Below, piece after piece: positions 4,734 through 12,185 of a stretch of DNA of 22,454 nucleotides; within the stretch, counting starts at the first letter, position 1, and each line of letters starts with the position of its first letter. The DNA is from a virus, in IMG/VR virus record IMGVR_UViG_3300048837_001433, positions 1 to 22,454 of that record, one strand, 5' to 3'. The notes under the pieces are model-generated. The model ran no database searches and was not told the origin of the DNA. It saw only the letters and a list, made by a program, of their open reading frames with translations. Both the position numbers and the translations under genes were made by a program.

Positions 4734-4950
4734 AACTACAAAAAGAGGGGATATACTATCTATCAATGGAAAAGACAGGATTGTTATTTTTCAATTAGAA
4801 GTAGAAAACTCTATAGTAATAGTATTAGACCACGAAGAGTATTTTGTGGTAAAAGAAGAGGATAAACTAACTACTGAGATACTTTATAAAAATGAAAGTA
4901 TATTACTACCAAAACTAAAAAGATTAGTTTTAACTGCCCAGCAAACCTAG
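4717..4950 (+). CDS. Hypothetical protein, 77 aa
   Basis: A 77-residue soluble protein starting 17 bases inside the glutaredoxin gene. It is rich in Val/Ile strands alternating with charged residues, suggesting a small beta fold (SH3-like or similar), with a basic C-terminus. No family is recognised. Its TAG stop (4948-4950) lies in the loop and right arm of the terminator that closes this operon, so the last codons are part of the hairpin. No clear Shine-Dalgarno site precedes the ATG. Confidence 0.6.
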   Translation: MYNLFKTTKRGDILSINGKDRIVIFQLEVENSIVIVLDHEEYFVVKEEDKLTTEILYKNESILLPKLKRLVLTAQQT

Positions 4951-4964
4951 CTGGGCTTTTTTTT
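4936..4964 (+). terminator. Rho-independent terminator closing the reductase operon
   Basis: A perfect 7-bp stem, GCCCAGC / GCTGGGC, around loop AAACCTA is followed by eight T residues (4957-4964). It overlaps the end of the 77-aa gene and ends nine bases before the ATG of the next operon. The left side is not A-rich, so it appears to act in the plus direction only. Confidence 0.88.
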
Positions 4965-4973
4965 AGGTTTAAT

Positions 4974-5948
4974 ATGAGCAAAGAAAAATTTTTAAAAGAC
5001 TTTTCAGAGGGTATTTATGAAAAGCATAAGCTTTTACCAAAGTCAGGAACTTCAATGGGGGGGTATTTAGTCAACTTTGATGGTACAGAATTTGTAAATT
5101 GGAGTTATAATGCCTGCCATGCAGGGGTTCTTCCTCTTGCCTACAGAGATGTTGTTGTTACTTATTTTCATCCTAATAAGTTTATTCCAGAAGACTTACA
5201 TAAAGGCGCAGAGGCCTACTATAACTGGCTGTTTAATGAAAGTTTTGTAGCTTCTTACTTTTTAGTGAAAGATTTCGAGACTGCTTTTGCTTTTGGAATT
5301 CCAGTAGATACTAATTTGCCCTCTAGTCTTTCCCTCTCCGCTTTTCAGCTTCTCAGAGTTCCTTTTTTAGAGCACTATAATAATTCGTTAGCTATGTTTG
5401 CACTAATAATGAAGGGGGTGCACCCTCTAGAGGCTTTGTTACTTTCTGTAAACTGTTCACTAGTTTATGATGCTAAAGATAAAGCAGTTAGGAGCCAAAG
5501 AGAACGGATAGATCTCGATATAGAGATAAATAAAGTGCCTGATACTGGCCATCTACCTTTCCATGGTCTAGGGGGAAATAAAATTACATCTTTGCTGAAA
5601 TATGTAACCCCAGAAATGGCATTAGCTGCTTATGCAGGAGAAAGAACTCTAAAAGACGCAAGATCTTGGCCAGCCGCCTGCACTTTTAAACTAAACAATG
5701 CTTTAGCTAAAGTTACGAATAATCCAACTCAGTTTAAAGTTTCTAATATACAACTAACAATTAGTGCTAAAAGATTCTTTGATACTATTAATTTTGAAGC
5801 TAAAGAGGGGAAAGTAGCAGAGAATCCTTGGCCTAAATTTTCAGAAAACTTTACTACTCTTTTTGTACAAGCTAAAGAAAATAAATCTATTGATTCAAGC
5901 TATTATAAATACTATTTAGATCCTGCATCCTTAGAGGTAAAAAAATAA
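4974..5948 (+). CDS. Unknown protein, first gene of the amidoligase operon (324 aa)
   Basis: A 324-residue protein of unrecognised family. It has several hydrophobic but not clearly membrane-spanning stretches (around 95-170), scattered aromatic residues, and a PDTGHLPFHGLGGNK segment at about 190-204 that looks like a conserved loop. There is no signal peptide. It starts nine bases after the terminator T-run, with AGG as the only ribosome-binding candidate. It is joined by a TAATG overlap to the class I amidotransferase gene, so it belongs to the same transcription unit as the amide-forming enzymes. It may be an enzyme of that pathway or the protein being modified. Neither can be shown from sequence. 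Confidence 0.8.
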   Translation: MSKEKFLKDFSEGIYEKHKLLPKSGTSMGGYLVNFDGTEFVNWSYNACHAGVLPLAYRDVVVTYFHPNKFIPEDLHKGAEAYYNWLFNESFVASYFLVKDFETAFAFGIPVDTNLPSSLSLSAFQLLRVPFLEHYNNSLAMFALIMKGVHPLEALLLSVNCSLVYDAKDKAVRSQRERIDLDIEINKVPDTGHLPFHGLGGNKITSLLKYVTPEMALAAYAGERTLKDARSWPAACTFKLNNALAKVTNNPTQFKVSNIQLTISAKRFFDTINFEAKEGKVAENPWPKFSENFTTLFVQAKENKSIDSSYYKYYLDPASLEVKK

Positions 5949-6550
5949 TGACTAAAAAACGTATTCTAGTTACAAGAGATGCTGGCATATACACTGGTGG
6001 ATTTAGCTCTCTTAGAGAAGATTACGAATTTGTATACACCTCACACTTACCTGTGCATGCTGTGCTGATACCCGGAGGCGGAGACGTATCTCCTCAACTT
6101 TATGGGCATACTAATCAAGGCTCTAGGGCTTGCAGTGTTGATAGCGATTATAAAGATATGTGCCATATAGCTAATGCCAAGCTAGAGGAAATTCCTATTA
6201 TTGGCATTTGTAAAGGAGCACAACTTTTGCATGTGAGCAATGGAGGCACTCTTATACAAGATATAGAAGGACATGCTGGGGTAGATCATCATGAAATAAC
6301 TTGTATAACACAAAAGGAGCCTGGAAAAGTAGAAGTAAACTCAACTCATCACCAAGCTATACCTATTGAAGAAGCAAAGAAAATGTATGAGATTGTATAT
6401 GCTTCTGCTGATAAGCAGGCTGTTGAAATCTTTATCTGTAATAGAAGAAAGACTTATGGATTCCAATTCCATCCAGAATATACTACCTGTCCAAAATCAG
6501 GCTATGATTTATTTCAGCATTTCCTCAAAGAAGTCATTTTAAAGGATTAA
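5948..6550 (+). CDS. Class I glutamine amidotransferase, peptidase C26-like
   Basis: The 200-residue protein has the full triad of the class I (triad) amidotransferase/gamma-glutamyl hydrolase fold. The oxyanion loop PGGGDVSPQLYG is at 42-53, the nucleophile elbow GICKGAQLL at 86-94 (C88), and FQFHPEY at 172-178 gives H175 and E177. STHHQAI (132-138) matches the substrate-side loop of PuuD-type gamma-glutamyl-GABA hydrolases. The expected reaction is hydrolysis of a gamma-glutamyl amide, or release of ammonia from glutamine for a partner ligase. It is somewhat shorter than PuuD (about 250 aa). It overlaps its upstream neighbour by one base and precedes a second, unrelated amidotransferase. 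Hydrolase versus ammonia donor is not decided by sequence. Confidence 0.87.
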   Translation: MTKKRILVTRDAGIYTGGFSSLREDYEFVYTSHLPVHAVLIPGGGDVSPQLYGHTNQGSRACSVDSDYKDMCHIANAKLEEIPIIGICKGAQLLHVSNGGTLIQDIEGHAGVDHHEITCITQKEPGKVEVNSTHHQAIPIEEAKKMYEIVYASADKQAVEIFICNRRKTYGFQFHPEYTTCPKSGYDLFQHFLKEVILKD

Positions 6551-6554
6551 TTTT

Positions 6555-7691
6555 ATGTGCGGATTAGTGGGGGTTATGTCTTCTATAATTGGTGTCCAAG
6601 AAATAGATGCTTTTAAATGGATGCTTCTTTTTGATACTCTACGTGGAGAAGATGCTACTGGTGTTTATATTTTCGGTAAATCTAAAAAGGAGCATTGTGG
6701 GTTAGGGGTATTGGCTAAGGCAGTAGGAAGACCAGAAGAGCTATACAGAAAATATCCGGCAATTTTCAATGCTAATGGTGTTGTTAATAGAGATTTATTT
6801 TCATCAATAAATCTAATAATGGGGCATAATAGGGCTAAAACTATTGGCTCTAATGTACCCTCTAATGCTCATCCTTTCGTATGTGGTAATATTGTAGGAA
6901 CTCATAATGGAACTATTGCAACAGGTTTAGATTCTCTACCTAAGCTCGCTAGAAAAGACAGTACTGATTCTGAAGCAATTTTTAATGCTATGGATAAAGG
7001 TGCTGAATTTGAAGAAGTTCTTGATAAACTAACTGGCGCAGCTGCTATGGTTTGGTTTGATAAAAAACATAGGACTTTAAATCTTTATCGTAATAGTGAA
7101 AGAACTTTATACTATAACTATGATAAGTCTAGAAGTAATCTTCTTTATTCTAGTGAAGATTGGATTTTAAACAGGTCTGCTTTCAAAGCTATTAGCAGTT
7201 TTGTTTCTGCTTCTACTAAAGATACAATCTTAGTGCCAGAAAATACTCTTTTATCTTTTACTTTCAATGGGCACAAACTAGAAAAGTCAAATGAGAAAAA
7301 AATAGAGGGGCTACGTAAAAGAGGAGCTATTACAGGCCAGCATGGCTATGCTGGTGGAGACTATTATTATAAAAGAGTCTTTAATAAATCTACTGAATTT
7401 GATAGAAGAAGTACAACTACTCCTCCTTACTTGAAAAAAGAAAATCAAGGAGAGCTAGTAGTTCTCCATAACAACAAAGTCACTCCAGTAAGATCTAGTA
7501 GTGGCTTCTTAGATATGAAAGGAATGACTAGAGAAGCATTCAATGCTTCTACTGCTAAATACGGTTGCTCATTTTGCAGTTGTGATCTTACCTATGAAGA
7601 AAATTCTCTAGGACAAGTTCATTGGATTGAGAAAGATGCACCACTTTGTGATAGCTGCAGCAAAAAAGAGTTAGTTAACAATGTTGATTAA
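6555..7691 (+). CDS. Class II glutamine amidotransferase with C-terminal Cys cluster
   Basis: The 378-residue protein begins MCGLVGV, so removal of Met exposes Cys2 as the N-terminal nucleophile, as in GlmS, PurF and asparagine synthetase. Supporting blocks are LRGEDATG (29-36), GHNRAKTIG (90-98), NAHPF (104-108), GTHNGTI (115-121) and TDSE (137-140). The amidotransferase domain covers roughly 1-250. No sugar isomerase or synthetase domain follows; instead there is a linker and a C-terminal CxxC...CxxC group (C338, C341, C343, C365, C368) resembling a zinc ribbon. It would release ammonia from glutamine for a ligase supplied in trans. AAAGGA at 6541-6546 supports ATG 6555. It overlaps the COOH-NH2 ligase gene by 11 bases. 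Confidence 0.9.
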   Translation: MCGLVGVMSSIIGVQEIDAFKWMLLFDTLRGEDATGVYIFGKSKKEHCGLGVLAKAVGRPEELYRKYPAIFNANGVVNRDLFSSINLIMGHNRAKTIGSNVPSNAHPFVCGNIVGTHNGTIATGLDSLPKLARKDSTDSEAIFNAMDKGAEFEEVLDKLTGAAAMVWFDKKHRTLNLYRNSERTLYYNYDKSRSNLLYSSEDWILNRSAFKAISSFVSASTKDTILVPENTLLSFTFNGHKLEKSNEKKIEGLRKRGAITGQHGYAGGDYYYKRVFNKSTEFDRRSTTTPPYLKKENQGELVVLHNNKVTPVRSSSGFLDMKGMTREAFNASTAKYGCSFCSCDLTYEENSLGQVHWIEKDAPLCDSCSKKELVNNVD

Positions 7692-8511
7692 AGACAAAGA
7701 AATACTAATCGGGTGTGATCCTGAAGTGTTTGTTTTCGACACCAAAAAAGAAAAGTTCATAGGTGCACATGGGCTTATAGGAGGAACAAAAGCTGCGCCA
7801 TTGGAAGTTACTAACGGTATGGTGCAGGTAGATGGTATGGCTTTGGAGTTTGGTATAGCTCCAGCTAGAACAGAGGATGAATTTTTCTCAAACATTAGCT
7901 CTGTAATGAATACTCTACAGAATATGTTGCCTAGCCATCTTGAGTTACGAGTAGTTCCTATTGTTGTATTTGATGATGATGTTATAGACTCTGCCCCTCC
8001 TGATGCCTTGATGCTAGGCTGTGATCCTGATTACAATGCCTATACTATGGAAAAAAACAGCCCCCCAATGCTTTCAGACCCTAATATGAGAAGCGCTGGT
8101 GGTCATGTTCATGTTGGATGGTGCAAAGGGGTGGATGCTGAAAGTAAGCAGCATCTAACAGCTTGTGCAGCTCTCACAGCTGTTATGGATCGTAACCTTG
8201 GAGTTCCTTCTTTGTATTGGGATAAAGATTCTACTAGACGGCAGATTTATGGCAAAGCTGGCGCTTTTAGACCTAAGCCCTATGGTATGGAATATAGAAC
8301 TCTAAGTAATCAATGGCTGTTATCTGAGGAGTATATACGAGTAGTCTACCGTAGAACCATTGAAAGTGTTAAAGATTGCCTTAATGACAATCTCCTATCA
8401 ATAAAACCTGTAAAGGTTTATGACAGATACCCACTAGCTTCTCAGTATATAATTGACAACAATATGACAGCGGTAGGAGAGGATTTTTATGAAAGATTTT
8501 GTACCATATGA
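7681..8511 (+). CDS. phiEco32-like COOH-NH2 ligase (amidoligase, type 2)
   Basis: The 276-residue protein matches my knowledge of the phiEco32-like COOH-NH2 ligase type 2 family, a glutamine-synthetase/GCS-like fold that joins a carboxylate to an amine using ATP. Visible blocks are GCDPEVFVFD (11-20), QVDGMALEFGIAPA (49-62), a second GCDPDYNAY (113-121), SAGGHVHVG (138-146) and YGMEYRTLSNQW (201-212). Acidic residues in these blocks are the likely metal/ATP ligands. It is cytosolic and lies directly after two amidotransferases, so ammonia derived from glutamine is one possible amine; an amino acid or protein amine is another. Its last 23 bases overlap the next gene. Family call is confident, substrate unknown. 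Confidence 0.85.
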   Translation: MLIKDKEILIGCDPEVFVFDTKKEKFIGAHGLIGGTKAAPLEVTNGMVQVDGMALEFGIAPARTEDEFFSNISSVMNTLQNMLPSHLELRVVPIVVFDDDVIDSAPPDALMLGCDPDYNAYTMEKNSPPMLSDPNMRSAGGHVHVGWCKGVDAESKQHLTACAALTAVMDRNLGVPSLYWDKDSTRRQIYGKAGAFRPKPYGMEYRTLSNQWLLSEEYIRVVYRRTIESVKDCLNDNLLSIKPVKVYDRYPLASQYIIDNNMTAVGEDFYERFCTI

Positions 8512-9124
8512 TAATGATCTTCGTTATGCTGTTACTCGCATGGTGGGTTCTTTTTTCAAAATAAAAGAGGAAAATAAAACAGTACTCGGTAAAATAATTG
8601 AAATAAATGGCCCCAGTAATAGCCTTAGAACCGCTAAGGTTTTTTATACCCTTAGAGAGTATGAGAACTCTAAAAGTTGTTCTATCTTTGATATCGACTA
8701 CTATCCAGGTAAACTAGGCTATACTTTAGATAAATATGACTATAGTTGGAAGTATTTACAGAGGCTGCCACTAAGGAGAGACTGGAAACAAGGCCTTCGT
8801 AATAATCAGCTAGTTTGGGCAACATCTAACAGAGATGAAAGATCTAGTGTAAATGGTAATTTCCTTGAATTCAACTATGATACTACTCTAAACTGTTTAG
8901 AAAATAAATACCAGGAGTTTGATATCACATTAGAGAATGTAGAAGAGACTGGAATGATTCAAGCATTTTCTAAAAACTTTGCAGTAGATAAAGACTACAA
9001 AGTCCTGTATAAGGCTAATGTGGTGGGGGGTATTAATACTCAAAACAAAGTAAAATTGTCTAAAAAGTTTGAGTTCCTTAAACAAGAATTAGAAGCAGAG
9101 GTCAAAAATGTCTTGGCTGCATAG
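8489..9124 (+). CDS. Unknown protein between two amidoligases (211 aa)
   Basis: A 211-residue protein of no recognised family. It is rich in Tyr, Asn and Lys, with many short predicted strands and a more helical, acidic C-terminus (about 185-211); there is no membrane segment or signal. It begins inside the COOH-NH2 ligase gene behind the strong site AGGAGAGG (8475-8482), and ends overlapping the second amidoligase by 17 bases. Being sandwiched between two ligases suggests a dedicated partner: a substrate, scaffold or accessory subunit. That is inference from position only. Confidence 0.78.
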   Translation: MKDFVPYDNDLRYAVTRMVGSFFKIKEENKTVLGKIIEINGPSNSLRTAKVFYTLREYENSKSCSIFDIDYYPGKLGYTLDKYDYSWKYLQRLPLRRDWKQGLRNNQLVWATSNRDERSSVNGNFLEFNYDTTLNCLENKYQEFDITLENVEETGMIQAFSKNFAVDKDYKVLYKANVVGGINTQNKVKLSKKFEFLKQELEAEVKNVLAA

Positions 9125-9941
9125 CTCAGTCTTTTCTGTTTTTAAAAATAAAGCTAAACAAACTGGAGAAGTAGGTATTGAAGTTGAGATGGAAGGAGCC
9201 CCAACTTGGCTTAGAAATGAGCTAGATACTTCTTGGTTGGCTACTTTAGATGGCTCTTTAAAAGATGCTCATGCACTAGAGTATGTGTTGAAAGCTCCAG
9301 TGGCTAGAAATGATGTTGCTGAAGCAGTCAATCGTCTTTACAGCAACATATCTAAAGTTGGGGGGATTATTAGGCCCTCTATGAGAGCAGGTGTCCATAT
9401 ACATATTAATTGTCAACAACTTTCTATTTTACAGCTAATAAATTTTATAGTAACTTACTATTGTATAGAGGATGCTCTAACTGAAAACTTGGGGGCTGAT
9501 CGTGTTGGTAATCTATTTTGTCTCAGAATCTCTGATGCAGAGGCTCCTCTAAGTAGGCTTAATGGATTTATTCGTTCTAAAAGTATGGGGTACCTACAGA
9601 CGGATGATATTCGCTATGCTGCTTTAAATTTAACTGCACTAGCCAAGTATGGAAGCCTAGAATTTAGGGCATTAAAAACACCTACACAAGGTGCTGAGAT
9701 TATAGAGTGGGTAGACACTCTCTTATCTATAAAAGATGCATCTATGAGATTTGGTTCTCCAGTTCAAATACTAAATGCCTTTTCAGCCAATGGCGTAGAG
9801 GCAATGATAATCAGAATTCTTGGTGAGGAAAGGGCAAAACGCTTAATTTTTAATCAAAGTGATTTTGAACATAAAATCTATAGTAATCTAAGGCAATTGC
9901 AACTTTTATCTTACACAAATAATTGGGATGATAATGACTAG
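9108..9941 (+). CDS. Second amidoligase (GCS-like, Amidoligase_2 type)
   Basis: The 277-residue protein has the signature of the amidoligase branch of the GCS/glutamine-synthetase-like fold: GIEVEMEG (23-30) with alternating acidic metal ligands, DGSL (48-51), EYV (58-60), RAGVHIHIN (93-101) with paired histidines, and YGSLEFRALKTP (181-192) near the end of the catalytic core. It is expected to form an amide or peptide bond from a carboxylate and an amine at the expense of ATP. It differs clearly from the ligase two genes upstream, so it is not a recent duplicate. AGAGG lies about seven bases before the ATG. It overlaps the ATP-grasp gene by 14 bases. Substrate unknown. Confidence 0.83.
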   Translation: MSWLHSSVFSVFKNKAKQTGEVGIEVEMEGAPTWLRNELDTSWLATLDGSLKDAHALEYVLKAPVARNDVAEAVNRLYSNISKVGGIIRPSMRAGVHIHINCQQLSILQLINFIVTYYCIEDALTENLGADRVGNLFCLRISDAEAPLSRLNGFIRSKSMGYLQTDDIRYAALNLTALAKYGSLEFRALKTPTQGAEIIEWVDTLLSIKDASMRFGSPVQILNAFSANGVEAMIIRILGEERAKRLIFNQSDFEHKIYSNLRQLQLLSYTNNWDDND

Positions 9942-10779
9942 TATTTTCATTTACCCCTATAAGGCTGGTTCTAAAAGCACAGTAGCTCTAGCCCAAAAGT
10001 TACCAGCCAAAGTCATAAAAAGGGAAAATTCTAACTTTAAACCAAGCAATAGTAAAATAGTAGTAAACTGGGGGTCTACTAGGCTGCCTGAGGAATTTAA
10101 CAAATGCGCAGCAGTTTTTAATTCCCCTAATGCAGTTAGGGAGTCCTCTAATAAGCTCTCCTTTTTTCAAAAGGTGGCAGCAGCACCAGAAGAAAGACGG
10201 CCAAAGATCCCGCCTTTTACTACTGTAAAAGATATTGCGGCCGAATGGCTACGAGAAGGGGCAAGAATGCTCTTTGCTAGAACTGTTTTGAATGGTAGTA
10301 GCGGCGAAGGAATTGTTAAAGTTACTTCTGAGCAAGAACTAGCTAATATACCTGAAGGCACCCTAATAGTAAAATATATTCCTAAAAGAAGAGAGTTTAG
10401 GCTACACTTTACTTCAGTTAGACCTAATCAGCCCTTTTGTACTCAAGAAAAAAAACTAAGAGTTACTAATAGAGAAGGACAAGTTGATTTTCATATAAGG
10501 AATTTAGATAACAATTTTGTTTTCGTTAGAGACCTTCCAGATTTACCACCTGTAGTACTTAGTGAGGCAGCTAAGGCCTTCGCGCTATCGGGGTTAGACT
10601 TCGGGGCCATTGATGTTATTTATAATGAAAAAGAGAAACAAGCTTATGTCCTAGAGGTCAATACTGCTCCTGGATTAGAGGGCTCTACTCTTGATGATTA
10701 TCAACAAGCAATAGCCGGTTTAGCAAGAAACAAAGGAGTGCCTTTAGATGGAGTCCCAAGAGGAGCTGGAATTATTTAA
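9928..10779 (+). CDS. ATP-grasp ligase (RimK-like)
   Basis: The 283-residue protein has the ATP-grasp pattern: an N-terminal strand-rich domain, a glycine-rich nucleotide loop NGSSGEGIVKV (122-132), the central strand KYIPKRREFRLHF (149-161), DFGAIDV (224-230), and the terminal metal-binding block LEVNTAPGLEGST (242-254), where E243 and N245 hold magnesium. This layout is closest to the RimK / D-Ala-D-Ala ligase type, which activates a carboxylate as acyl phosphate for attack by an amine. It is the third predicted amide-forming enzyme in the operon. The ATG two codons later (9934) has a better spaced GGG and may be the true start. It overlaps the next gene by 32 bases. Confidence 0.87.
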   Translation: MIMTSIFIYPYKAGSKSTVALAQKLPAKVIKRENSNFKPSNSKIVVNWGSTRLPEEFNKCAAVFNSPNAVRESSNKLSFFQKVAAAPEERRPKIPPFTTVKDIAAEWLREGARMLFARTVLNGSSGEGIVKVTSEQELANIPEGTLIVKYIPKRREFRLHFTSVRPNQPFCTQEKKLRVTNREGQVDFHIRNLDNNFVFVRDLPDLPPVVLSEAAKAFALSGLDFGAIDVIYNEKEKQAYVLEVNTAPGLEGSTLDDYQQAIAGLARNKGVPLDGVPRGAGII

Positions 10780-11698
10780 TACTCTAACTGAGTATTTAGA
10801 TCCTAAGTTTTCAAAAAAGTACACTAGTAAAATTGCTAGGGTTATTCCACAGCTAACTTTAAATAAAAGCTTAGAAGAAATTTTTGCTTATCACCATTAT
10901 TGTATGACAATGGGTGGCGCGCTCTCTAGCTGTATTACTATTCTTGATAATATTAACGCCTCGAATTTCATAGGGGTTGATAGCGACACTATTAAAAGAC
11001 TTTTTGTAGAGTACTGTCCTGTACCAGCTAAAGCTATCAATAGAAATATTGTAGCTAGACATGAGCTTGTGGCCCCAATAAAAACATTAAAAGTCATTGA
11101 ACTTGTAGAAAGTATTGCTGAAAAAACAAGAGGTTTACACTATGAAGCTGTGCATGATACGCTTTATAGTTCTCTTAAATTTGTTAGAGAATTATCACAA
11201 GCAATTGAAAAAACAATTATCGCTAGCCTAGTTAATATTTTTAATAATGAAGAGAGCAGAGCCACTTTACAGGAAACTCTATCTCCAGAAGAATGGCTGC
11301 TATGTTTAGATTTTGAAAGTATTATAAAGCTTAGTTTTCTCAATCCTTTTTCAGTTCTAGATGCAGCTAAGACCTTAGAAGATGCAGTCTATAGTATAGC
11401 TACTAATATTTTGTATGCGGATAGGACTATCGGAGAGATCTTAGTAGCCTCTAAGCTTTTTAAGGCTATAAATGAGAAAATGCGTAACAAAGAATCTGCT
11501 TCATTGAAAACGAGGCCTCTAGAAGAGCTGCATGCTGAACTGCAGAGGAGACCTATAAGGCCCATTGCTGAAAGGAACATTCGCCATCATGAGGAAGAGC
11601 CACCAAGACCAGAAGTAGTGGCTCAAGATAATGGAGCTAGAATCTTTCCGAATATAGAGCATGAATTCTTTGCTCCTGGTGGTTTTGTTAGAAGATAA
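10748..11698 (+). CDS. Unknown protein, last gene of the amidoligase operon (316 aa)
   Basis: A 316-residue, mostly helical protein of no recognised family. The first 250 residues are Leu/Ile/Ala-rich amphipathic helices without clear membrane segments. The final 65 residues (about 250-316) differ: they are rich in Arg, Glu, Pro and His and end in APGGFVRR, which looks disordered. AAGGAG at 10733-10738 precedes the ATG, inside the ATP-grasp gene. A helical body with a flexible charged tail, encoded beside three amide-forming enzymes, could be a carrier or modification target, but this is inference. It ends 32 bases before the convergent terminator region. Confidence 0.78.
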   Translation: MESQEELELFNTLTEYLDPKFSKKYTSKIARVIPQLTLNKSLEEIFAYHHYCMTMGGALSSCITILDNINASNFIGVDSDTIKRLFVEYCPVPAKAINRNIVARHELVAPIKTLKVIELVESIAEKTRGLHYEAVHDTLYSSLKFVRELSQAIEKTIIASLVNIFNNEESRATLQETLSPEEWLLCLDFESIIKLSFLNPFSVLDAAKTLEDAVYSIATNILYADRTIGEILVASKLFKAINEKMRNKESASLKTRPLEELHAELQRRPIRPIAERNIRHHEEEPPRPEVVAQDNGARIFPNIEHEFFAPGGFVRR

Positions 11699-11730: not shown

Positions 11731-11782
11731 AAAAAAGGGAACTCCGCTAACTGCGGGGTTCCCACTTTTCTTTTTTTTTTTG
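11731..11782. terminator. Bidirectional Rho-independent terminator between convergent operons
   Basis: An 11-bp stem with one G-U pair (GGGAACTCCGC 11737-11747 with GCGGGGTTCCC 11753-11763) encloses the loop TAACT. Six A residues stand to the left and a long, once-interrupted T tract to the right (11765-11781), so each strand reads A-tract, hairpin, U-tract. It stops the plus-strand amidoligase operon and the minus-strand late operon, whose last gene ends one base from the T tract. Confidence 0.92.
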
Positions 11783-12010
11783 TTAATTACAGCCATCATC
11801 AAAACCAGTAATAACTATCTCAGCTGCAACTATAGTTTTTGGGCCACCATCAACTAAAACTGCATCATTTAAATCATCAATAGGTTTAGAGAGGCCGCTG
11901 CAAAGGGCTGAGTCAACTGCTGCTTTATTAGTTATTAGCTCTAACAGCTTGCCGTTGCCGCAGCCGCTCAGTAGCAGACTCAACACTACGAGGCTTAGAA
12001 ATGCTTTCAT
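11783..12010 (-). CDS. Rz1-like outer-membrane spanin lipoprotein
   Basis: The 75-residue protein starts with a short lipoprotein signal (basic K2, hydrophobic 4-14) and a lipobox L-S-G-C at 14-17, so signal peptidase II would leave a mature protein of about 59 residues lipidated on C17. Its gene begins inside the preceding Rz-like gene in another frame, the classic overlapping spanin layout. As the outer-membrane partner it would bind the Rz-like protein across the periplasm and fuse the membranes at lysis. It lacks the high proline content of lambda Rz1 and has two further cysteines (C37, C74). AAGGA stands eight bases before the ATG. It is the last gene of the late operon. Confidence 0.82.
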   Translation of the reverse strand: MKAFLSLVVLSLLLSGCGNGKLLELITNKAAVDSALCSGLSKPIDDLNDAVLVDGGPKTIVAAEIVITGFDDGCN

Positions 12011-12185
12011 TTATTTTTTCCTTTACAGCTTGTTGTTTAGTGGCTAATTCTCTTTCTATTTGAGTCCTAACTTCATACTTAGCAGCATCTATTGCTCTAT
12101 TAAATAAAAAGAACATAGCACCAAAACCCAAAATTAATACTAGTATAGGAAATAAATTGTTACTTTTTAGGAAGGTTAGCATCAT
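11928..12185 (-). CDS. Rz-like inner-membrane spanin
   Basis: The 85-residue protein has one N-terminal membrane segment (about 11-29) followed by a charged helical region (about 33-82) rich in Glu, Lys, Gln and Arg that can form a periplasmic coiled coil. This is the N-in, C-out topology of i-spanins. Its last 83 bases overlap the lipoprotein gene out of frame, which together with topology makes an Rz/Rz1-type pair likely. It is shorter than lambda Rz (153 aa). AAGGAA about six bases upstream supports the ATGATG start; either Met could be used. It overlaps the holin candidate by 26 bases. Confidence 0.8.
   Translation of the reverse strand: MMLTFLKSNNLFPILVLILGFGAMFFLFNRAIDAAKYEVRTQIERELATKQQAVKEKINESISKPRSVESATERLRQRQAVRANN

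Follow-up and report, generated by a model that had tools for sequence, protein, structure and literature searches.

We have followed up an initial annotation of 22,454 nt of viral DNA, referred to here as the window, which had described an operon of eight overlapping genes lying between two terminators. All eight ORFs and both hairpins were confirmed, at the following positions in the window.

4936..4964, plus strand: 5' terminator-like hairpin (GCCCAGC..GCTGGGC, 4936-4956), then a T8 tract
4974..5948, plus strand: g1, 324 aa, conserved first core gene with no Pfam or NCBIfam family
5948..6550, plus strand: g2, Peptidase_C26-like protein with Cys88-His175-Glu177 and an HHQ motif (Pfam Peptidase_C26 1.9e-23)
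6555..7691, plus strand: g3, Ntn (class II) glutaminase domain (GATase_6 8.5e-18)
7681..8511, plus strand: g4, phiEco32-type COOH-NH2 ligase, a GCS-like carboxylate-amine ligase (COOH-NH2_lig 3.4e-9; phrog_3815 4e-77)
8489..9124, plus strand: g5, 211 aa, conserved partner (phrog_11055 2.4e-17; alignment)
9108..9941, plus strand: g6, Amidoligase_2 (GCS-like) ligase (Amidoligase_2 1.3e-9; phrog_7469 1.7e-60)
9928..10779, plus strand: g7, ATP-grasp ligase (phrog_2599 3.3e-66; alignment)
10748..11698, plus strand: g8, 316 aa, no detectable relatives
11737..11782, plus strand: strong terminator-like hairpin closing the operon (11737-11763), then a T-rich tail

Successive ORFs from g1 to g8 are spaced by -1, +4, -11, -23, -17, -14 and -32 nt, giving an overlap at six of the seven junctions and a 4-nt gap at the remaining one. 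Hairpins recur at the same two operon ends in related contigs, the 3' hairpin facing late genes on the minus strand and the 5' hairpin lying ∼10 nt upstream of the g1 start codon, a position kept in relatives L007, L008, L009, L013, L015 and L016. Terminator-like sites number 14 in the scanned region, compared with 7.1 ± 2.0 in shuffled sequences. The 5' hairpin adjoins the g1 start and leaves a promoter little or no space. The operon is therefore not insulated, and its earlier description as self-contained is doubtful. Ribonucleotide reductase and glutaredoxin genes lie directly upstream, a DNA-metabolism neighbourhood that is one of the marks of the cassette described below, and tail genes on the minus strand confirm that the genome is of siphovirus type. 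No Rfam match and no tRNA were detected in the window, PADLOC returned no defence match, and a search for tail-protein relatives, made to obtain a cassette-free sister, returned none.

HMM searches place COOH-NH2 ligase type 2, Amidoligase_2, ATP-grasp, peptidase C26 and class I and class II glutaminase-type proteins at the locus, bearing out the amide-bond-forming families proposed for it, and the gene order is found in phages. All three ligase types are present together, g7 being assigned by PHROG and profile matches, and are accompanied by a class II GATase (g3) and a C26 protein (g2) in conserved order on a single strand. Profile comparison detects no homology between g4 and g6, which are thus not the result of a recent duplication. 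In three bacilli, a single protein of 868-902 aa joins COOH-NH2_lig to a YheCD ATP-grasp. Its gene adjoins a Mur-ligase gene, and the fusion implies a common substrate for the two ligase types. This Bacillus-group fusion resembles the present operon in joining the same ligase family to an ATP-grasp ligase but is chromosomal and a single polypeptide, with no GATase or g5 in the set.

The nearest solved relatives of g7 are RimK alpha-L-glutamate ligases (profile versus PDB, RimK-type 1.6e-12). Its Pfam and NCBIfam matches all fall under the curated cut-offs and its score against TIGR00768 (rimK_fam) is 24.9 bits against a cut-off of 143.4, so that g7 is RimK-like only. RimK, the closest relation of g7, glutamylates ribosomal protein S6, which argues for an explanation in which g7, as a RimK/TTL-like enzyme, would with g4 and g6 glutamylate a host or phage protein, the residues being removed by g2 and g3. 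Cassette proteins are also found in the SU10 virion proteome, although they are listed there as early gene products (PMC4281155). Protein tagging is nevertheless unlikely in our estimation, considering the low RimK family score, the lack of a conserved small substrate peptide in the operon and the fact that g8 is not conserved. Several g6 proteins have an acidic C-terminus in '-EF', which was considered as a tubulin/TTL-type tag site and dropped, because in most cases these termini lie in purine-rich DNA beside the g7 start and they are absent from this lineage.

The catalytic residues C88, H175 and E177 of g2, together with H134-H135-Q136, are invariant in 20 sequences. The initial annotation favoured a class I amidotransferase for this protein; its nearest solved relatives are instead Lin1909, PauD-type proteins and PuuD, which are gamma-glutamyl-amine hydrolases and not ammonia-feeding GATases. 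A match to the NCBIfam gamma-glutamyl-CDP-amidate hydrolase (2.9e-11) lies under the family cut-off and the score against the curated equivalog PRK11366 (gamma-Glu-GABA hydrolase) is 31.8 bits against a cut-off of 266; g2 is therefore PuuD-like, not PuuD, and is probably a gamma-glutamyl hydrolase as judged from its motifs and relatives. The g3 protein begins with Met-Cys2 and continues through a variable linker to a C-terminal CxxC...CxxC, a zinc-ribbon-like tail. Its profile matches PurF/GlmS glutaminase domains (1.8e-17) and, weakly, EgtC (0.0035). Of the earlier description as a class II amidotransferase with a Cys cluster, the glutaminase domain and the zinc-ribbon-like tail stand, but Pfam recognises no acceptor or synthetase domain (PRTase, SIS, Asn synthetase) in g3, and PF00733 is absent across the window.

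Two kinds of characterised system offer comparisons. In the gamma-glutamyl-polyamine pathways PuuA/PuuD and PauA/PauD, a ligase is paired with a C26 hydrolase. The same pairing is found here and g2 matches the PuuD and PauD structures; however, g4 and g6 are GCS-like and not PuuA-like by the families found, and the likeness lies in the genes. In the ergothioneine (EgtA/EgtC) and butirosin (BtrJ/BtrG) systems, a ligase adds a gamma-glutamyl group which an Ntn hydrolase or a gamma-glutamyl cyclotransferase (GGCT) takes off. Its weak EgtC match notwithstanding, g3 is nearer to the PurF/GlmS domains and differs from EgtC in its tail.

The remaining three proteins are g1, g5 and g8. Six columns of g1 (C48, W85, S90, A123, R128 and H193) are invariant in 18 sequences, and the uncharacterised protein, whose invariant residues include a Cys and a His, is probably an enzyme. 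Its AlphaFold model has a low pLDDT of 57.8, at which the fold is not resolved, Foldseek gave no usable match to solved folds, and a profile match to Shulin among solved structures (0.029) was likewise not usable. The g5 model (pLDDT 90.9) is predicted to combine helices with an SH3/Tudor-like beta domain; it shows no recognised enzyme fold, and the SH3/Tudor-type matches are partial and non-significant. A weak asparaginase stretch in g5 (0.8) was dropped as chance after the model gave this domain. For g8 the homologue search returned 0 matches; genes of similar size follow g7 in related contigs and have no homology to g8.

Matches to g4 occur in 317 phage records. The proposed phiEco32 relationship is supported, and the cassette genes are known from >300 phage records, close relatives keeping the order seen here. 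The exact order g1-g2-g3-g4-g5-g6-g7 is seen at 29 of 93 non-redundant loci, the others being rearranged or incomplete. Because they are conserved across phages, the ORFs are not chance. By this comparison the conserved core is seven genes, g1-g7, including the 324-aa and 211-aa proteins, and not the eight of the initial annotation. Among 50 cassette records, C26 is present in 43, GGCT in 23 and at least one of the two in 48; phiEco32 and phi14:2 carry GGCT without C26. GGCT is rare among all phages (tblastn, 143 of 50,697 records, Bruynoghevirus for the most part); the seven divergent GGCT carriers that were examined all have an amidoligase nearby. Mutual replacement of C26 and GGCT was considered, and is suggestive only (Fisher one-sided p ∼0.06, on records that are not independent).

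In 84,980 bacterial and archaeal genomes, the g4 family gave three distant fusions and six strong matches, the latter all on MAG contigs where other cassette genes lie nearby. On these counts the cassette is almost confined to viruses, which is unlike borrowed host metabolism and makes it improbable that the genes serve auxiliary nitrogen and amino-acid metabolism by raising host glutamate and amino-acid supply, as proposed for a Planctomycetes phage with amidoligase, GATase, glutathione-synthase-like and GGCT genes (PMC10945688).

The operon is a copy of a known cassette and not a new type of system. A seven-gene 'peptidoglycan modification cassette' was described in RIO-1-like podoviruses and listed also for phiEco32, PA11, tf, LUZ24, PaP3 and CW02 (PMC5498523). 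As in the podovirus cassette, a COOH-NH2 ligase, an amidoligase and an ATP-grasp protein occur together with a class II GATase and with C26 and/or GGCT (here C26); the gene order is identical in PA11 and CW02, with g5 in the matching place, whereas in LUZ24 and phiEco32 the order is different and GGCT replaces C26. What sets the present operon apart from the podovirus cassette is its siphovirus-type carrier lineage, where ribonucleotide reductase and glutaredoxin genes are its neighbours, and an extra, lineage-specific eighth gene. New here are this carrier lineage, g1 and g5 as core parts, the g5 fold prediction and the conserved hairpins. The earlier statement that no function had been assigned to such clusters holds for experiments but not for hypotheses, which have been published (PMC5498523; Iyer et al. 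2009, as cited in PMC10580990).

In the published hypothesis, cytoplasmic peptidoglycan precursors have their stem peptide altered by the ligases, and the newly made wall then keeps out superinfecting phages or withstands foreign lysins. Beyond the RIO-1-like set, cell-wall modification was proposed for phiEco32 (Iyer et al. 2009, as cited in PMC10580990); the Mur-ligase neighbour of the bacterial fusion relative is consistent with it, as is the fact that hosts ranging from Pseudomonas and Cellulophaga to a cyanobacterium all have peptidoglycan. However, the literature covered reports no measured change of the wall, the cassette is without a transporter, glycosyltransferase or lipid-carrier gene, and expression in PaP3, where the g4 relative is named p48, is middle and not early: ORF32-48 reach their maximum at 10-30 min, as do DNA polymerase and primase (PMC4707531). 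We regard this as a possible but doubtful explanation. It differs from the pathway set out below only in fixing the acceptor.

The cassette genes sit with replication genes and, in PaP3, are expressed with them, and this, with the zinc-ribbon-like motif at the end of g3, could fit DNA hypermodification, in which a DNA base would receive an amide or amino-acid side chain built by the operon. RsaI, HpaI, EcoRV, SmaI and HaeIII nevertheless cut the DNA of the carrier tf, a relative and not the present phage (PMC3517423), and the cassette holds no base-modifying enzyme. Quantitative DNA modification is disfavoured, and hypermodification in general is the least probable of the explanations weighed here.

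From the genes, their motifs, their conserved order and their co-occurrence, which are observed directly, we infer all activities, the substrate and the benefit. We consider it rather probable that the cassette encodes a virus-only pathway which adds and removes glutamyl-type amide bonds and is made in the DNA-replication phase, on an acceptor that is a candidate only. The GCS-like g4 and g6 and the RimK-like g7 would work one after another, using ATP to link carboxylates, of which glutamate is the likeliest, to amines. The PuuD-like g2 and the stand-alone Ntn glutaminase domain of g3 would act on the gamma-glutamyl side, either cleaving gamma-glutamyl amides (deprotection, glutamate recycling) or supplying a ligase with ammonia taken from glutamine; g5 may be a non-enzymatic binding or scaffold subunit, and the product would be formed during DNA replication. 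The catalytic motifs and families of five enzymes, the conserved gene order, the nearest solved relatives of g2 and g7, the C26 and GGCT counts, the bacterial ligase fusion and the timing of the PaP3 genes support the pathway; as a counterpoint, g2 and g3 could simply be ammonia-feeding glutaminases. In our ranking, the acceptor is most likely a cytoplasmic peptidoglycan precursor or, about equally, a small cytoplasmic amine or metabolite, ahead of a protein and, last, DNA. A peptide-like product attached to something, as first proposed, is likewise something we infer, and the earlier reading as a whole is partly supported.

A bolder and quite tentative proposal is that the product is a soluble, previously unknown glutamyl-amide compound needed by phages during DNA replication, neither a wall change nor a simple nitrogen supply. 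The cassette would then be a virus-only natural-product pathway common to podo-, sipho- and crAss-like phages, in which g1 would supply a novel enzyme fold or activity and g5 would serve as carrier or scaffold.

The same core cassette is present in hundreds of phages from unrelated groups, including well-studied Pseudomonas and Escherichia phages, and devoting ∼6 kb to it presumably brings a phage much benefit. With the present evidence the chemistry is narrowed to glutamyl amides and the core is defined as g1-g7.

Eight open reading frames, g1 to g8, occupy the plus strand of the operon in this virus record of 22,454 bases, with six of the seven junctions overlapping by 1–32 nt and the remaining one being a 4-nt gap. 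The region had been read in the initial annotation as a self-contained operon bounded by two terminators, and all eight genes and both hairpins are indeed present.

Features of the operon and its surroundings
1210-1554, phage-encoded Peptidyl-tRNA hydrolase 2 (PTH2, 9.2e-31), upstream of the ribonucleotide reductase gene
4936-4956, hairpin with T tract, before g1
4974-11698, plus strand, g1-g8, encoding 324, 200, 378, 276, 211, 277, 283 and 316 aa
11737-11763, hairpin with T tract, after g8
11783-12185, minus strand, two small overlapping ORFs adjoining the M15 endolysin gene, one carrying a lipoprotein-like signal and the other an N-terminal membrane segment, resembling an overlapping spanin pair

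Ribonucleotide reductase and glutaredoxin genes lie upstream of the operon and minus-strand genes for an endolysin, a central tail fibre J-like protein, tail and distal tail proteins and a tape measure protein lie beyond it, the tail genes supporting a predicted siphovirus-type tail. The g1 start codon is located only ∼10 nt beyond the 5' hairpin. Seven related contigs were folded, and six of them also show a hairpin just before g1, leaving ∼20–30 nt ahead of the gene, with a CTAGCTAAGAGGT-like segment common to several of them at this site. A strong terminator likewise ends the operon in the relatives examined; conservation of hairpins at both ends is a new observation. A promoter scan returned 32 candidates vs 32.9 expected. 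Because a promoter would not fit after the 5' hairpin, g1 transcripts must begin upstream of or inside it. The 5' element would thus be a partial terminator, an attenuator or a site of processing rather than an insulator.

The proposed families were borne out. g4 falls among the phiEco32-type COOH-NH2 ligases and g6 in Amidoligase_2. Acidic and H-x-H motifs are retained in both, and profile comparison of the two detected no homology. g7 is of the ATP-grasp type; it comes closest to glutamate ligases of the RimK type, with a score under the RimK family cut-off. A second ATP-grasp type, ending EINSAPSQTSPYRQEC and not EINTAPGLEG, sits upstream in the cassettes of L020, L021, L024, L027, L030 and L033, replacing the usual g7. 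g2 belongs to Peptidase_C26 (1.9e-23), with Cys88, His175, Glu177 and an HHQ motif invariant across 20 homologues, and among solved structures it matches Lin1909, a PauD-type protein and PuuD best (6.5e-23 to 7e-13), with carbamoyl-phosphate synthase behind (5e-8). g3 has a class II glutaminase domain (GATase_6), and no acceptor domain was found in it; Cys2, HNR, HPF, HNGT, DS and a C-terminal CxxC...CxxC are kept in nearly all of 25 homologues. New here is a re-labelling that moves the putative roles of both g2 and g3 in the direction of gamma-glutamyl chemistry.

For the remaining genes, structure prediction and fold search gave no fold for g1, in which Cys48, Trp85, Ser90, Arg128 and His193 are invariant. 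The high-confidence g5 model (pLDDT 90.9) is predicted to comprise a small beta domain resembling SH3/Tudor folds plus helices, the matches being partial and not significant, and no enzyme fold was recognised in it. A search for relatives of g8 found none. Related siphovirus-type contigs encode a family of 252–308 aa at the same position after g7, with no detectable homology to g8, which suggests that the eighth position may hold a fast-changing or swapped gene.

Members of the post-g7 family
L006, 4532-5290
L007, 13026-13796
L008, 13067-13993
L009, 13035-13880
L013, 13026-13868
L015, 13033-13854

The seven-gene core counting g1 and g5, and the predicted g5 fold, are new here. In L032 (8182-12591), two divergent g5-g6 copies facing away from each other flank g3-g4, apparently a local inverted duplication within the cassette.

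Matches to g4 were detected by tblastn in 317 of 50,697 phage records. The gene-order comparison called for by the initial annotation revealed the exact g1–g7 order in 29 of 93 non-redundant loci, most others being variants in which the ATP-grasp gene is moved, g1 or g2 is missing or lies outside the contig, or a second ATP-grasp is present. Carriers include Zobellviridae, Bruynoghevirus, Kuravirus phiEco32, a Rhizobium phage, a cyanophage and a crAss-like phage. The cassette is already published in phages, the window operon being a further example, and the novelty initially claimed was too high. What is new is the carrier: L005–L009, L013, L015 and L016 share the window's ribonucleotide reductase/glutaredoxin side and/or its tail/endolysin side, so the cassette would belong to a whole siphovirus-type lineage. 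A g4 search of 84,980 genomes of bacteria and archaea gave just six strong matches, each in a MAG contig that also has cassette neighbours; in addition, three bacilli encode a COOH-NH2_lig/YheCD ATP-grasp fusion, its gene adjoining one for a Mur ligase. At the sensitivity used, the g4 family thus appears almost purely viral, a near-absence from cells also new here.

The Mur ligase beside this fusion fits the hypothesis that altered peptidoglycan peptides block superinfection (PMC5498523; PMC10580990), although a measurement of wall change was not found in the literature. Full base modification of DNA by the cassette is spoken against by phage tf, a cassette carrier whose DNA is cleaved by RsaI, HpaI, EcoRV, SmaI and HaeIII (PMC3517423). 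Similar genes are treated as nitrogen metabolism helpers in an eLife paper (PMC10945688), in which no gene-level test was found. In the carrier PaP3, ORF32–48, including DNA polymerase and primase, peak at 10–30 min (PMC4707531); p48 is a g4 relative according to the PA11 annotation.

A frequent companion, also new here, is gamma-glutamyl cyclotransferase (GGCT). Among 50 cassette records, GGCT is present in 23, Peptidase_C26 (C26) in 43 and at least one of the two in 48; of the remaining pair of records, which have neither, one is a fragment of 21 kb. phiEco32 and phi14:2, both chosen via g4, lack C26 and carry GGCT. Within records chosen via g4, which are mutually related, GGCT occurs in 7 of 9 C26-less vs 19 of 45 C26-bearing records (one-sided p 0.056), suggestive, not proof, of a trade-off. 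GGCT is rare across phages (143 records), and each of the seven divergent carriers examined via GGCT also encodes an amidoligase. In the source contigs of L008, L009 and L015, siphovirus-type relatives of the window, the GGCT gene is ∼16–21 kb away from the cassette. Bacillus phage 022DV001 (L112, 6006-8414) has amidoligase and GGCT only, with an annotated poly-gamma-glutamate hydrolase nearby, and may carry a reduced version of the pathway. A ligase is paired with a gamma-glutamyl hydrolase in polyamine breakdown (PuuA/PuuD), ergothioneine (EgtA/EgtC) and butirosin (BtrJ/BtrG) pathways, which the cassette would resemble by analogy and not by membership. GGCT co-occurrence and the PuuD-like and RimK-like relationships point to glutamyl amides as the currency on which the chemistry of this phage cassette may centre.
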